64,000 nucleotides of DNA from Streptomyces sp. RKAG293 (GTDB lineage Bacteria > Actinomycetota > Actinomycetes > Streptomycetales > Streptomycetaceae), in the NCBI RefSeq assembly GCF_023701745.1, contig NZ_JAJOZB010000001.1, positions 2,734,501 to 2,798,500 of the forward strand. Direction: 5' to 3'. The notes beneath the pieces were generated by a model. The model saw only the letters and a list, made by a program, of their open reading frames with translations, did not search any database and was not told the origin of the DNA. Within the stretch, counting starts at the first letter, position 1, and each line of letters opens with the position of its first letter. Positions 57,965 to 63,602 of this stretch are shown one piece after another. The translations under genes were made by a program, and so were the position numbers.

Positions 57965-58354
57965 CTAGCTGTCCTGCCCGTCCCTGCGGCGCTGCCAGCG
58001 TTCTTCGATCCGGTCCATGACCTTGCCCCTGCGACGGGGGTGGCCTCGGCCGGTGGTTGCGGCGGGCTGCTGCTCACCGGGTTTGCCGGCCTTCCGCCAG
58101 CCCGTGACCGCGAGCACGGCACAAGCCAGCATGACGAGGAAACCGACCACACTGATCCAGGGCTGCTGCTTGATCATTCCAGCCATCAGCAGCGCGATAC
58201 CCACCAGGAAGCCCGCTACCGCTTGGTAGACGCGCCGCCGGGTATAGGTGCGCAGCCCGCTTCCCTCAAGCGCCGACGCGAACTTGGGATCTTCGGCGTA
58301 CAGCGCTCGCTCCATCTGCTCGAGCATGCGCTGCTCGTGCTCCGAGAGCGGCAC
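57965..58354 (-). CDS. DUF3040 membrane protein
   Basis: This 129-aa protein has MPLSEHEQRMLEQMERALYAED at its N-terminus (split), the DUF3040 signature, then two helices (AVAGFLVGIALLMAGMI and ISVVGFLVMLACAVLAV) and an Arg-rich tail. A homologue lies near the dcw cluster in Streptomyces. The start is GTG 58354 after GGAGGA. The function is not established here. Confidence 0.85.
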   Translation of the reverse strand: MPLSEHEQRMLEQMERALYAEDPKFASALEGSGLRTYTRRRVYQAVAGFLVGIALLMAGMIKQQPWISVVGFLVMLACAVLAVTGWRKAGKPGEQQPAATTGRGHPRRRGKVMDRIEERWQRRRDGQDS

Positions 58355-58566: not shown

Positions 58567-59346
58567 TCAGCCGCGGTCGGCGAGCACGTGCAGTTGAGTG
58601 GCGATCGAGTGGAACGCGGGCTGCTCCGCGGCGGCCAGTTCCAGCTTGAGCAGCGCTTCCAGGGCGCCCGGCTCGGTGTCCACCAGCACTCCCGGGACCA
58701 GGTCGGCGAAGACCCGGACGCCGTGCACCGCGCCGACCCGCAGGCCCGCGTCGGAGACCAGGTGGGTGAGCTGCTCGGCGGTGAAGCGGCGCGGGAGCGA
58801 GTCCCCGTCGCCCCAGCGGCCGTCCGGGTCCCCTATGGCGTGCTGGGCTTCGGTGAAGTGGCCGGCGATGGCACGGGCCAGCACGGCGCCACCGCGGCCG
58901 GCCGCCAGCAGGCTCAGGGCCCCGGCCGGGCGGAGCGCGCCGACGGCGTTGCGCACGCCCTCGCCCGGGTCGTCGACGTACTCCAGGACGCCGTGGCACA
59001 GCACGACGTCATAGCTGCCGGGCTCGACGACGTCGAGCAGGCCGTGGGTGTCGCCCTGGACGCCGCGGACCCGGTCGGTCACCCCGGCCTCGGCGGCCCG
59101 GCGCTCCAGCGCGAAGAGCGCGTCCGGGCTCGGGTCCACGACGGTGACCCGGTGGCCGAGGCGCGCCACGGGCACCGCGAAGTTTCCGGTGCCGCCCCCG
59201 GTGTCGAGCACGTCCAGCGGCTCTTCGGCGTCGCGGCCGCCTGCCTTGGCCTGCCGCTCCAGTGCGTCGCGCAGGACCTCCCAGACCACAGCGGTACGAA
59301 GGGACGCTCGGGGGCGGATCGGATCCACCACTCCTTCACGGGACAT
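58567..59346 (-). CDS. Class I SAM-dependent methyltransferase
   Basis: This 259-aa Rossmann-fold methyltransferase has motif I LDVLDTGGGTGNFAVPVA, motif II VTVVDPSPDALFAL and a post-motif DVVLCHGVLEYVDDP. It is similar in layout to small-molecule or tRNA-cmo5U-like methyltransferases, but the substrate cannot be told. ATG 59346. Confidence 0.85.
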   Translation of the reverse strand: MSREGVVDPIRPRASLRTAVVWEVLRDALERQAKAGGRDAEEPLDVLDTGGGTGNFAVPVARLGHRVTVVDPSPDALFALERRAAEAGVTDRVRGVQGDTHGLLDVVEPGSYDVVLCHGVLEYVDDPGEGVRNAVGALRPAGALSLLAAGRGGAVLARAIAGHFTEAQHAIGDPDGRWGDGDSLPRRFTAEQLTHLVSDAGLRVGAVHGVRVFADLVPGVLVDTEPGALEALLKLELAAAEQPAFHSIATQLHVLADRG

Positions 59347-59419: not shown

Positions 59420-59932
59420 TCAATTGGCCTTCTGCTGCGGCAGGGCCGGGGGCAGGTTCGGGGGCCGGGTCGGGGGCAGGCCGTCGCGCAGTTCCGCGGG
59501 CAGGGTGGGCTGGAGCACCAGCATCCGTTCCACCAGGCGCAGGAACATCCCGGCGGCGCGCAGCAGATCGTCCGCGTCCCGCCAGGTGGCGGCGCCTTCT
59601 ATGCCGGCTTCTGCGCGGGCCCGGCGGCGGGCGCCGTACTCGAACATGGCGCTCCACTCGCTGAGCTCCGGCGCGACTTCGGGCAGCACCTCCCAGGCGC
59701 TGCGTATCCGCTGTCGCCGTCTGGGGCCCGGCTCGGGACGGCCCCGCACGGCCAGCACCGCCGCCGCGGTCCGCAGGGCGGCGAGGTGGGCGGTGGCGTA
59801 GCGCTCGTTGGGGGTTTCCAGGACGGCCGCCTCGTCGAGTCCGAGGTGGGCCTGGGTGAGCAGGTCGAGCGCGGCGGGCGGAGCCGCCGCACGGCGCAGC
59901 ACGGGATGGATGTCGCTTACGTGAGCAGCCAT
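59420..59932 (-). CDS. SAV_6107-type HEPN-domain protein
   Basis: This 170-aa helical protein (HEPN-like) contains NERYATAHLAALRTAAAVLAV, then YGARRRARAEAG and a C-terminal Pro-rich tail. HEPN proteins are often RNA-directed nucleases or toxin parts, but the R-x4-6-H catalytic motif is not obvious here, and no antitoxin gene adjoins. ATG 59932 with GGAGG upstream is preferred to the in-frame ATG at 59971. Confidence 0.75.
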   Translation of the reverse strand: MAAHVSDIHPVLRRAAAPPAALDLLTQAHLGLDEAAVLETPNERYATAHLAALRTAAAVLAVRGRPEPGPRRRQRIRSAWEVLPEVAPELSEWSAMFEYGARRRARAEAGIEGAATWRDADDLLRAAGMFLRLVERMLVLQPTLPAELRDGLPPTRPPNLPPALPQQKAN

Positions 59933-60074
59933 GACGAGCCTCCTGTCTTCGTACGACACATAGTGGGGCACACCACTGACAATCGGCCTTGACCTGCGGA
60001 TATGCCCCTAGCACAGGTGTTCGCCACCCCCCACGGCGGGTCCCTCCCCGCGATGCTGCATACTTATCTTTTGT

Positions 60075-60088
60075 ACTGACCAGTCAGT
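60075..60088. promoter_or_regulatory. Candidate TetR operator
   Basis: ACTGAC-CA-GTCAGT is an inverted repeat with 6-bp arms. It starts 5 nt after TATCTT (60065-60070), a possible -10, and 20 nt before the GTG of the ABC gene. It would therefore cover the transcription start. The operon ends in a tetR-type gene, so autorepression is likely. Confidence 0.6.
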
Positions 60089-60108
60089 TCAAAAGAGGAG
60101 AGTGACTC

Positions 60109-60864
60109 GTGATCACCGCGGAGGGGTACGGGCTGCGCGGCCCGCGTGGGCGGGTGTTCGGGGATGTGTCGTTCAGCGCGCCCGCCGGCACGCTGATCGC
60201 CGTCGAGGGCCCGTCGGGCACCGGCCGCACCTGCCTGATGCTGGCGCTCACCGGACGCATGAAGGCCACCGAAGGGCACGCGGAGGTCCACGGACACCCG
60301 CTCCCCCAGCGCATGCCCGCCGTGCGCCGGATCAGTGCTCTCGGTCCCGTCGACGGCATCTCCGCCCTCGAACCGGCCCTCACCGTCGCCGAGCACCTGC
60401 GCGAGAGGGTGCTGCTGCAGCGCAGGTTCGCCTCCCGCGCCGCACGCGACCGCGCCGATGTGGCGGCGGCTCTGAAGGCCGCGGGACTCGAGCTGGACTC
60501 GCTGGTCAAGGGCGAGCGGACGGCCGTACGCGATCTGGAACGGCTGGAGGCACTGCGGCTGGGCGTCGCCCTCGCACTGCTGCCGCGGCCGCGGGTGCTG
60601 GGGATCGACGACGTCGACCACAAGCTCGGCGACACCGACCGCGAGCTGGCCTGGTCGATGCTGCGCTCGGTGGCCGACGCGGGCACCACCGTCCTCGGCG
60701 TCTGCACCAGGGCGCCGGAGGACGCGCTCGTGGTCCCCACCCGGGCCGCCAGCACCGCCGCGCAGGGCACCACCGCCGACGCGACCGCCGACCTGACCGC
60801 CGATGCGACCGAAGAGACCGAAGAGGGGGCCGTCGATGCGTACACCGAAGCTCGCCGCGCTTGA
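60109..60864 (+). CDS. Degenerate ABC-type ATPase domain protein
   Basis: This 251-aa protein has an ABC fold but weakened motifs. Walker A reads GPSGTGRT with Arg 40 in place of the invariant Lys, the signature region (LERLEALRLGVAL) lacks LSGGQ, and Walker B is VLGIDDVD with Asp where the catalytic Glu belongs. The C-terminus is an Ala/Thr/Glu-rich tail (about 40 residues). It could bind nucleotide without hydrolysing it. GTG 60109 follows AGAGGAG. It overlaps the YhgE gene by 29 nt. Confidence 0.75.
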   Translation: MITAEGYGLRGPRGRVFGDVSFSAPAGTLIAVEGPSGTGRTCLMLALTGRMKATEGHAEVHGHPLPQRMPAVRRISALGPVDGISALEPALTVAEHLRERVLLQRRFASRAARDRADVAAALKAAGLELDSLVKGERTAVRDLERLEALRLGVALALLPRPRVLGIDDVDHKLGDTDRELAWSMLRSVADAGTTVLGVCTRAPEDALVVPTRAASTAAQGTTADATADLTADATEETEEGAVDAYTEARRA

Positions 60865-62953
60865 GCTGAAGAAGTTCGGCCGGGGCCGGCTGCCGAGGGC
60901 GGCCATGGCCGCCCTCCTGCTGCTGCCGCTGCTCTACGGCGCCCTGTACCTATGGTCCTTCTGGGACCCGTACGGGCGGCTCGACAAGATCCCCGTCGCC
61001 CTGGTGAACGCCGACCGCGGCGCGACCGCCGGCGGCAAGAAGATCGCGGCGGGCGACGAACTCGCCGCCAAGCTGCACGACACGGCCACCTTCGACTGGC
61101 AGGAGACGGACTCCGCCGACGCCACGAAGGGCCTGGAGAACGGCTCGTACTACCTGACGCTCACCATCCCCGCCGACTTCAGCGAGCGGATCGCGTCCAG
61201 CTCGGGCAGCCACCCGGAGACCGGCGCCCTGCAGGTGCGCACCAACGACTCCAACAACTACATCGTCGGACAGATCTCCCGCAGTGTGTTCTCGCAGGTC
61301 AGGGCCGCCACCTCGGCCGGTGCGTCACGCGGCTTCTACGACCGGATCTTCGTGTCGTTCGCCGATCTGCACGACAAGACGCAGCAGGCCGCCCAGGGCG
61401 CGTCCGACGTGGCCGGCGGCGCCGGCAGCGCCGAGCAGGGCTCCAAGGAGCTCGGCTCCGGCATCCGCAAGGCCGAGCAGGGCGCGGGCCGGCTCGCCGC
61501 GGGTCTCAAGGACGCCAGGAAGGGCAGCGGCGAGCTGGCCACCGGTCTCACCACGCTCGACTCCGGCGCGGGCCAGGTCGCGTCCGGTACCCAGCGGCTC
61601 GTGGACGCGGTGAACGGCGCCTCCGACAAGATCGCGTTCGTGAAGGCCCACACCCGGGAGATCGGCGAGGCCTCCCGGATCGTCGCCGACGGATCGCAGG
61701 CGATCAAGGACCATCTGGACACGATCGCCGTGCTGGCGCCGGACGCCGCCAAGGCGTCCAGGACCGCCGCCGACCTCGTACGGCAGCAGTACACGAAGCA
61801 GTGCGCCGCCGCCCCGGCCACCGGAGACTGCGTCGCGCTGAAGCGCGCCGCCGACAAGGCGGCCGAGGCCGCGACACTGGCCGAGCGGCTCAACGCGCAG
61901 GTCAGCGGGCCCGCGTCGTTCGACCAGCTCGCCACCGACCTCGGCAAGCTGCACGACTACGCCCAGGAACTCGCCAGCGCCGCACCGCATCTGTCCTCGG
62001 ACATCAACGGTGCCGTGAAGGACATCGACCGGCTCAACACCGGGGCCCACCAGGTCGCCTCCGGCGCCCACACGGCGGCCGGCGGCGCCCGCACCCTCGA
62101 CAAGGGCATCGGCACCCTCTCCCAGGGCGCCGACACCCTCAGCGGCGGCATGTACCAGCTCGCCACCGGCAGCAACCGGCTCACCACCGGTCTGACGCAG
62201 CTCACCACCGGCAGCGGGCAGCTCGCCACCGGTCTGCACGAGGGCGTCGACAAGATCCCGGACTACGACGCCCAGGAGCGCGACGCGCGCACCGCGGTGA
62301 TGGCCGACCCCGTACAGCTCGCCTCGCAGTCCCTGCACCAGGCGTCCAACTACGGGGAGGGGCTCGCCCCGTACTTCATCCCGCTCTCCCTGTGGGTCGG
62401 CGCGATGGTCGGCTACATGCTCTTCCAGCCGATGAACCGCCGGGCGCTCGCCGCCGGGGCCGCGTCCTGGCGGATAGCGCTGGCCGGCTGGCTGCCGGTG
62501 GCCGCGGTCGGGGTGGCACAGGTGCTGGCGCTGATGTCGGTGCTGCACTGGGTGGTCGGGCTGCAGATGGCCCGCGCCGCCGGCACGATCGGCTTCCTGC
62601 TGCTGGCCGCGGCCTGCTTCGCCGCCATCATCCAGTTCCTGGGCGCCCGGTTCGGCCCGGCGGGACGGGTGCTCACCCTGGCGATGCTGATGCTGCAGCT
62701 GACCTCGGCGGGCGGCACCTATCCGGTGCAGACCAGCCCCGGCTTCTTCGGTGCCATCCACCCGTTCCTGCCCATGAGCTACGTCGTCGAGGGGCTCCGC
62801 CACCTGATCACCGGCGGCGGGCTCTGGCCGGTCTGGCGGGCCTGCCTGGTGCTCCTGGCCTTCACCGGCGCCGCGCTGGCGCTCACCACCCTGACGGCCC
62901 GCGCCAAGCAGGTGTGGACCGTGGACCGGCTGCACCCGGAGCTGACCCTGTGA
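60836..62953 (+). CDS. YhgE/Pip-family membrane protein
   Basis: This 705-aa protein has one N-terminal helix (AAMAALLLLPLLYGALYLW), then a long extracytoplasmic region. The latter is rich in alternating Gly/Ala/Thr/Leu heptads (LATGLTTLDSGAGQVASG, LTTGLTQLTTGSGQLATGL), typical of YhgE/Pip. Five or so C-terminal helices follow, like an ABC-2 permease. ATG 60836 follows AGAGGGGG. With the ABC-like protein it may form an exporter or secretion complex. Family members are linked to phage receptor and type VII-like functions in other bacteria. Confidence 0.88.
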   Translation: MRTPKLAALELKKFGRGRLPRAAMAALLLLPLLYGALYLWSFWDPYGRLDKIPVALVNADRGATAGGKKIAAGDELAAKLHDTATFDWQETDSADATKGLENGSYYLTLTIPADFSERIASSSGSHPETGALQVRTNDSNNYIVGQISRSVFSQVRAATSAGASRGFYDRIFVSFADLHDKTQQAAQGASDVAGGAGSAEQGSKELGSGIRKAEQGAGRLAAGLKDARKGSGELATGLTTLDSGAGQVASGTQRLVDAVNGASDKIAFVKAHTREIGEASRIVADGSQAIKDHLDTIAVLAPDAAKASRTAADLVRQQYTKQCAAAPATGDCVALKRAADKAAEAATLAERLNAQVSGPASFDQLATDLGKLHDYAQELASAAPHLSSDINGAVKDIDRLNTGAHQVASGAHTAAGGARTLDKGIGTLSQGADTLSGGMYQLATGSNRLTTGLTQLTTGSGQLATGLHEGVDKIPDYDAQERDARTAVMADPVQLASQSLHQASNYGEGLAPYFIPLSLWVGAMVGYMLFQPMNRRALAAGAASWRIALAGWLPVAAVGVAQVLALMSVLHWVVGLQMARAAGTIGFLLLAAACFAAIIQFLGARFGPAGRVLTLAMLMLQLTSAGGTYPVQTSPGFFGAIHPFLPMSYVVEGLRHLITGGGLWPVWRACLVLLAFTGAALALTTLTARAKQVWTVDRLHPELTL

Positions 62954-62987
62954 GACGGGGCCGCCCCGGGCAGGGACAATCGACGCC

Positions 62988-63602
62988 ATGACCACCGCAC
63001 GTCGTCAGGCCACGCGGCAGAAGCTCTACGAGGCCGCCGTCACACTCATCGCCGAGCAGGGCTTCTCCGCCACCACGGTGGAGGAGATCGCCGAGCGGGC
63101 CGGCGTCGCCAAGGGCACCGTCTACTACAACTTCGCCAGCAAGAACGAGTTGTTCGAGCAGCTGCTCCAGCACGGTGTCGGGCTGCTCACCGTCTCGCTG
63201 CGGGACGCGGCGGACGAGGTGGCCGCGCGCGGCGGCACCCGGGTCGACGCGCTGGACGCGCAGATCCGGGCCGGGCTGGCGTTCATCGCCCGCTACCCGT
63301 CCTTCACCCAGCTGTACGTCGCCGAGTTGTGGCGGACCAACCGCGCCTGGCAGGACACGCTGATGATGGTCCGCCGGGAGGCGGTCGCGGTGGTGGAGAA
63401 GGTGCTGCGCGAGGCGGTGGACAACGGGGAGCTCAGCGACGAGATCGACGTCCCGCTCACCGCGTCCGCGCTCTTCGGGATGGTGCTGGTCGCCGCCCTG
63501 GACTGGCAGGCGTTCCAGTCGCACCGCAGCATCGACGACGTGCACTCCGCCCTGTCCCGGCTGCTGCAGGGCCGGGTCAGCGGCGACTCCCGGCGGACAT
63601 GA
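62988..63602 (+). CDS. TetR/AcrR-family regulator
   Basis: This 204-aa repressor has an N-terminal helix-turn-helix (LYEAAVTLIAEQGFSATTVE, then EIAERAGVAKGTVYYNFASK) and a helical ligand-binding C-domain. It lies 34 nt after the YhgE gene. It probably binds the palindrome at 60075-60088 upstream of its operon. ATG 62988 has only weak RBS evidence (GGGACA). Confidence 0.9.
   Translation: MTTARRQATRQKLYEAAVTLIAEQGFSATTVEEIAERAGVAKGTVYYNFASKNELFEQLLQHGVGLLTVSLRDAADEVAARGGTRVDALDAQIRAGLAFIARYPSFTQLYVAELWRTNRAWQDTLMMVRREAVAVVEKVLREAVDNGELSDEIDVPLTASALFGMVLVAALDWQAFQSHRSIDDVHSALSRLLQGRVSGDSRRT

Follow-up and report, generated by a model that had tools for sequence, protein, structure and literature searches.

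A first-pass annotation of a 64,000-nucleotide stretch of Streptomyces sp. RKAG293 DNA (contig NZ_JAJOZB010000001.1, positions 2,734,501 to 2,798,500; "the window" refers below to this whole stretch) drew attention to a module of three genes, all on the + strand, which encode in turn an ATP-binding cassette (ABC)-like protein, a YhgE/Pip membrane protein and a TetR-family regulator. The module was taken to regulate itself and its ABC-like member to have lost its catalytic motifs. Its features are as follows.

60069-60094, no strand assigned: putative TetR operator, a 26-bp (base pair) palindrome TTTTG-N-ACTGACCAGTCAGT-N-CAAAA with its core at 60075-60088, recognised by conservation upstream of the module
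60095-60102, + strand: likely ribosome-binding site GAGGAGAG, picked out by eye
60109-60864, + strand: ABC-like protein P0001, 251 amino acids, catalytic motifs lost
60208-60231, + strand: Walker A equivalent GPSGTGRT, residues 34-41, with the Arg40 codon at 60226-60228
60535-60549, + strand: signature place, LERLE for LSGGQ, residues 143-147, from alignment
60607-60612, + strand: Walker B Asp167 and Asp168, the latter replacing the catalytic Glu, from alignment
60836-62953, + strand: YhgE/Pip membrane protein P0002, 705 amino acids, with an xxxLxxG heptad stalk
62988-63602, + strand: TetR-family regulator P0003, 204 amino acids

The ABC-like protein belongs to ABC_tran (PF00005; 43.5 bits against a Pfam cut-off of 25) and the regulator to TetR_N (68.4 bits against 24), while both YhgE/Pip domains of NCBIfam exceed their cut-offs (228.7 against 102.2 bits and 187.7 against 96.15 bits), which confirms the first-pass naming of the YhgE/Pip and TetR genes; Pfam also calls ABC2_membrane_3 within the module. 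The ABC-like and YhgE reading frames share 29 bp in the window. Scans of 59950-60200 for sigma-70 promoters and terminators found none, and a sequence search of the PDB with YhgE gave no matches at E ≤0.01 (E, expectation value). Among the matches listed, the nearest named relative is Streptomyces fildesensis (L036; L and G numbers are our handles for loci and genomes), at 93% over the ABC-like protein.

In the ABC-like protein, residue 40 of the Walker A stretch GPSGTGRT is Arg in place of Lys, LERLE stands where the LSGGQ signature would be, and Walker B reads DDVD as compared with the DEPT of canonical ABC proteins, the catalytic Glu thus being lost. These three losses had been pointed out in the first-pass annotation and are borne out here; the H-loop His is gone as well. 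We compared a close set of 81 sequences, consisting of the window and 80 relatives from named genomes (the best 80 of 246), which was gathered with search patterns that excluded the Walker A stretch and of which one covered Walker B. Arg40 and Thr41 are invariant in all 81, as are Gly34, Ser36, Gly37, Gly39, Asp167, Asp168 and Cys199; the signature place is mostly LERLE, and the H-loop position holds Ser, Thr, Ala, Gly or Arg, never His. Codon usage at Arg40 varies (CGC in 67 sequences, CGT in 9, CGG in 4 and CGA in 1), and all of these changes are silent. In six pairs, the ratio of nonsynonymous to synonymous substitution rates (dN/dS) is 0.19-0.27 for the ABC core, which is near that of YhgE (0.18-0.31), mostly above that of TetR (0.10-0.22) and above that of the methyltransferase encoded upstream of the module (0.03-0.12). 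The conserved residues, the silent Arg40 codons and the low dN/dS together imply that selection maintains the ABC-like protein in its changed state while, judged by these ratios, holding it less tightly than TetR and the methyltransferase. Its predicted fold is that of an ordinary nucleotide-binding domain (NBD), with a predicted local distance difference test score (pLDDT) of 88 and Z scores of 20-24 to NBDs that include 4yer, FtsE and LptB, the best match being 4yer (Z 23.7 over 203 residues, 2.3 Å).

Of the genomes searched with a profile of this protein, 99 of 200 in the same family and 68 of 394 in the class have a match at E ≤1e-20, and 59 stretches around divergent matches were fetched. 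The resulting alignment holds 145 family rows, namely the 81 close sequences, 62 divergent ones and two weak matches (L223 and L224) that were added by hand. The frameshift-split ABC open reading frames (ORFs) of L176 and of the first copy in L194, both with Arg when read by eye, were left out of the counts, as were L219, L221 and L222, whose genomes were already counted; the divergent matches in G043, G075, G098, G099, G133, G146 and G478, the other close Streptomycetaceae matches and loci L116-L154 lie outside the analysis. Across the 145 rows the Walker A residue is Arg in 132, Lys in 11, Gln in one and His in one. The first Walker B Asp (Asp167) is present in 142, the second acid is Asp in 126, Asn in 11, Glu in two and another residue in six, and the A-loop place (position 17) is Phe in 96 and Tyr in 43. 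A signature in the form of SGG, SxGQ or SGM was found in none of the 145 rows, and neither was an H-loop His, from which it follows that the loss is more than a mutation local to the window. In the same alignment, all five canonical ABC proteins included for comparison show Lys, Glu and His, and their signature is LSGGM in four and FSLGM in one; Lys and SGG had been the grounds for choosing four of the five. The first-pass annotation had asked whether Arg40 is conserved among homologues and had regarded homologues with intact Walker motifs as grounds for abandoning its reading. Arg40 turns out to be constant among close relatives and prevalent across the family without being universal, and the intact motifs exist in part, as the Lys of a single clade and the Walker B Glu of two rows.

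A tree parts the family from the canonical ABC proteins (100/100) and gathers the 11 rows with Lys into a single clade (99/86) nested within the Arg rows; the outgroup branch is long (2.45) and carries a long-branch warning, so that the tree does not decide between an ancestral and a regained Lys. Eight of these 11 are the C-terminal domains of MMPL-type proteins (L196-L200 and L202-L204), with YhgE directly 3' of them, and the other three (L205-L207) stand alone; the MMPL assignment was confirmed by Pfam for L196 and read by eye from the ORFs for the other seven. Strongly diverged ABC-like partners of YhgE were also seen in other families of the class (L218, L220, L223 and L224). L220 keeps GSGRT, whereas L218, L223 and L224 have a degraded P-loop, which is what one would expect of proteins whose task is not catalysis.

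The first-pass annotation also asserted that the ABC-like protein is coupled to YhgE, and here the comparison upholds it. A YhgE gene adjoins the ABC-like gene in 80 of 80 close cases and in 60 of 60 divergent rows (58 loci), and since these loci were located by the ABC-like protein and not by YhgE, the pairing (140/140) was not built into the sample. The two frames overlap in all 80 close loci, mostly by 29 bp. Across 40 aligned YhgE rows, L6, A7, A8, L9, E10 and L11 of its N-terminal helix do not vary. In L168 they form a single ORF of 1002 residues in which both domains are confirmed by Pfam, and in L114 they are likewise in frame, with a frameshift further on in the ORF that may be an assembly error. 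Tandem ABC-like/YhgE pairs with one TetR gene between the copies occur in L179, L181 and L194. Upstream of the module the window contains the following genes.

59420-59971, - strand: SAV_6107-like HEPN protein
58567-59346, - strand: methyltransferase
57965-58354, - strand: DUF3040 protein

Most often it is the HEPN gene that lies next to the module on its upstream side, and this gene stays beside TetR where the module is missing. In eight genomes of the same genus that have no ABC-like match, the TetR gene (80-87% identical) is kept next to the same HEPN and methyltransferase genes in every case; between HEPN and TetR there is no ABC-like match in any of the eight and, as regards this locus only, no YhgE match in seven. 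L278 has an 89-residue YhgE tail (1188-1454) between HEPN and TetR and no ABC-like gene; this tail is likely the scar of a deletion that took the ABC-like gene and most of YhgE. The operator core is not found at the eight module-less TetR loci, where the best matches have 3-5 mismatches. Elsewhere in the phylum YhgE can stand with no ABC partner gene next to it: YhgE matches were detected in 23 of 119 genomes, 15 of them above the cut-off, and none of these 15 loci outside the class shows an ABC match, 14 of them having upstream sequence to judge by. Relatives of YhgE that fall below the cut-off (L237-L240) lie beside an ABC gene in which Lys and SGG are both present.

The palindrome that the first-pass annotation placed at the predicted start of the module does lie at 60075-60088, although in the leader rather than at the start codon: the distance from the last base of the whole 26-bp palindrome around this core to the G that opens the GTG is 15 bp. 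The core is the sole site in the window at ≤2 mismatches (it is listed twice, once for each strand) and the sole exact site in the 9.27-Mb genome; the window by itself is weak evidence, as at least two core matches at 2 mismatches arose in 6 of 100 shuffles. An exact match to ACTGACYRGTCAGT is present upstream in 80 of the 81 close loci, L090 having one mismatch. The core falls within about 300 bp 5' of the ABC-like gene in all 81 (in L095 and L115 farther than the first scan), and in most it sits inside the longer TTTTG...CAAAA palindrome. Among 405 shuffled upstream stretches no core match was better than 3 mismatches, and it is this recurrence in 81 of 81 close loci, set against the shuffled stretches, that makes the palindrome more than chance. 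Among the 60 divergent rows, 33 have both the operator and a downstream TetR gene, 23 have neither and four are discordant, three with an operator and no TetR found (L157, L212 and L188) and one with TetR and no operator (L186). L157 and L212 stop at the end of the stretch, L188 does not. Absence of TetR in these rows means that none lies 3' of YhgE on the same strand, and in L196, L198, L199, L202, L205 and L206 the stretch contains a weaker TetR match at another place; three of the rows with neither are the second copies in the tandem loci (L179, L181 and L194), in which the other copy has the operator, with or without TetR. Given the conservation in close loci and the co-occurrence with TetR, a chance palindrome is rejected, and autoregulation of TetR through the 26-bp palindrome is a well-supported prediction from these comparisons. 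The self-regulated circuit of the first-pass annotation therefore stands insofar as the palindrome mostly tracks the TetR gene, with the four discordant rows as exceptions.

The exact operator occurs in 36 of 61 family genomes, once in each, as compared with 3 of 61 for a backward-read control. At 29 such loci that were read, the site precedes the ABC-like gene in 23 and a gene for a secreted GDSL/SGNH hydrolase in six (L248-L250 and L252-L254), where it is the sole exact core (1501-1514 in each). The six hydrolases are orthologues, 74-100% identical to that of L249, and all come from same-genus genomes that keep TetR without the module; the GDSL/SGNH assignment was confirmed by Pfam for one of the six. 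In G030, whose ABC-like gene is of the kind without TetR, the hydrolase gene has the operator site, and in G019, which has the full module, it does not. The hydrolase site suggests a second TetR target, perhaps tied to lipids or the envelope; it could also be owned by another TetR-type regulator. Elsewhere in the window genome the operator is matched with one mismatch at two places (L216 and L217), which were set aside as being at chance level (the backward control gave 3 per strand), and no ABC-like, YhgE or matching TetR gene lies within 1.5 kb of them.

We consider it probable that the module is a TetR-autoregulated operon in which a YhgE-type ABC-2 protein has an obligate ABC-like partner, a non-ATPase in which the NBD fold and a P-loop are retained, and a distinct ABC-like/YhgE complex is well supported as its predicted product. 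In ABC proteins, each ATP site is shared between two subunits, one of which supplies Walker A, Walker B and the H-loop and the other the signature. Because the ABC-like protein lacks its share of both halves, neither a homodimer nor a heterodimer with a complete site is expected, and with the Walker A Lys, the catalytic Glu, the H-loop His and the partner-completing signature all lost, it would not be predicted to power YhgE by ATP hydrolysis. The missing site halves, their conservation and the obligate coupling to YhgE make a non-hydrolysing scaffold or nucleotide-sensing clamp of YhgE the likeliest role, and we think a role of this kind probable. A TetR dimer on the 26-bp palindrome would repress the ABC-like gene, YhgE and its own gene until released by a ligand, and the overlapping frames may couple synthesis of the ABC-like protein to that of YhgE. 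The ABC-like protein would then dock on the cytoplasmic side of YhgE, as NBDs do on ABC-2 proteins, a step supported by the one-ORF fusion in L168, and as scaffold or clamp would set the state of YhgE, which may carry out an envelope or amphiphile-related task with another energy source or none.

Several observations weigh against this reading. The dN/dS of the ABC-like protein is about twice that of the neighbouring methyltransferase. The predicted model of YhgE (40 rows) is poor, with a mean pLDDT of 57 and a predicted template modelling score (pTM) of 0.32, so that the docking step draws no support from it. It was by way of YhgE that the degraded relatives L218, L223 and L224 came to light, and their position beside it therefore carries no weight; for two of them, L223 and L224, the match to the family is also weak (E 6e-8 and 1e-13). 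The Walker A Lys persists in 11 of the 145 relatives, an Asp is sometimes able to replace the catalytic Glu, and the strict conservation of the P-loop in most family members argues for some use of nucleotide. This last point is also the main one in favour of a true but unorthodox ATPase, in which Arg40 would hold the phosphates, the Asp pair would catalyse and the conserved R-D-L-E-R-L-E-x-L-R-L would replace the signature. The nearly invariant P-loop, the frequency of both Walker B Asp residues (142 and 126 of 145), the common aromatic residue at the A-loop place and the eleven Lys rows all fit such an enzyme, and yet a recognisable signature and H-loop His are wanting in the entire alignment, the P-loop is degraded in three relatives, and an Arg for Lys in Walker A belongs to the degenerate site of ABCG5/G8 in the portion of PMC7756269 available to us; on balance we regard it as unlikely. 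Alternatively, the ABC-like protein might be the degenerate member of a pair whose other half is a normal ABC ATPase encoded elsewhere, after the manner of ABCG5/G8 or of shared importer ATPases. Known heterodimers do combine one degenerate and one working site (PMC11466899 and PMC7756269, each as far as available), and the genome offers 55 matches to P0001 at E ≤0.001, itself included. This arrangement seems improbable, as neither composite site would be complete when the protein's own catalytic half and signature half are both missing, no second ABC match was seen inside the modules read except for the tandem copies of the same pair, and the ABC-like gene and YhgE go missing together at the locus.

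A regulator, an ABC protein and an ABC-2 permease are the typical gene set of a drug exporter, and the Pfam calls of ABC_tran and ABC2_membrane_3 agree with an ordinary TetR-controlled exporter in which the motif losses are immaterial; this is nevertheless quite improbable, in that the losses are family-wide and conserved, an ABC gene is missing from all 14 true YhgE loci read outside the class for which there is upstream sequence, and a working-looking ABC gene was seen with below-cut-off relatives. A local mutation or decaying gene, which several motif losses in the window alone might have suggested, is refuted by the 81 of 81 close sequences that have the losses in common, by the dN/dS values and by the silent changes at Arg40, and its chances are negligible.

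To our knowledge YhgE/Pip proteins are widespread and have no agreed function, and a conserved, regulated module in which the partner is predicted to be non-hydrolysing, found moreover in a genus amenable to laboratory work, would offer a direct route to that function. It also lets one ask whether a complex built on ABC lines can function in the absence of an ATP cycle, and the predicted operator could be used to find the inducer. A more speculative and doubtful extension would be an actinobacterial class of ABC-shaped membrane complexes that do without ATP hydrolysis, in which the ABC subunit would do no more than connect to YhgE, mechanically or as a nucleotide sensor, and the MMPL fusion may couple a proton-driven pump to YhgE. 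Our searches of the open-access literature gave no description of an ABC-like/YhgE/TetR module. The YhgE/PIP domain of Enterococcus PIP is given as having no known function in the available part of PMC4999554. Parts of two other reports mention YhgE gene changes in Enterococcus isolates insensitive to ginkgolic acid (PMC8754111) and record that lauric acid lowers a YhgE/Pip-like gene in a methanogen (PMC5816558); these are no more than hints of a link between YhgE and amphiphiles.

The closest known counterparts are the phage infection proteins of Lactococcus and Enterococcus (TIGR03061, TIGR03062), with which the module's YhgE shares both terminal domains and the xxxLxxG repeats between them; it differs in being locked to an ABC-like gene, whereas PMC4999554, in the part available, treats PIP alone. 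The N-terminal domain is related to that of EsaA/YueB of type VIIb secretion, but at 55.3 bits the module's YhgE falls short of the TIGR03929 cut-off of 122 bits and on this score is not a member of that family. The MMPL-type proteins that end in an ABC-like domain belong to the same family, have YhgE adjacent and lack the signature, and they depart from the module in keeping Lys and in having neither the operator nor a TetR gene 3' of YhgE. As for degenerate ABC sites, a Walker A Lys replaced by Arg is known from ABCG5/G8 and the absence of Lys from the second Walker A of RbsA and NupO (PMC7756269 and PMC11466899, respectively, in the parts available), but those proteins retain one working site, whereas the module has a single ABC subunit and its share is missing from both halves.

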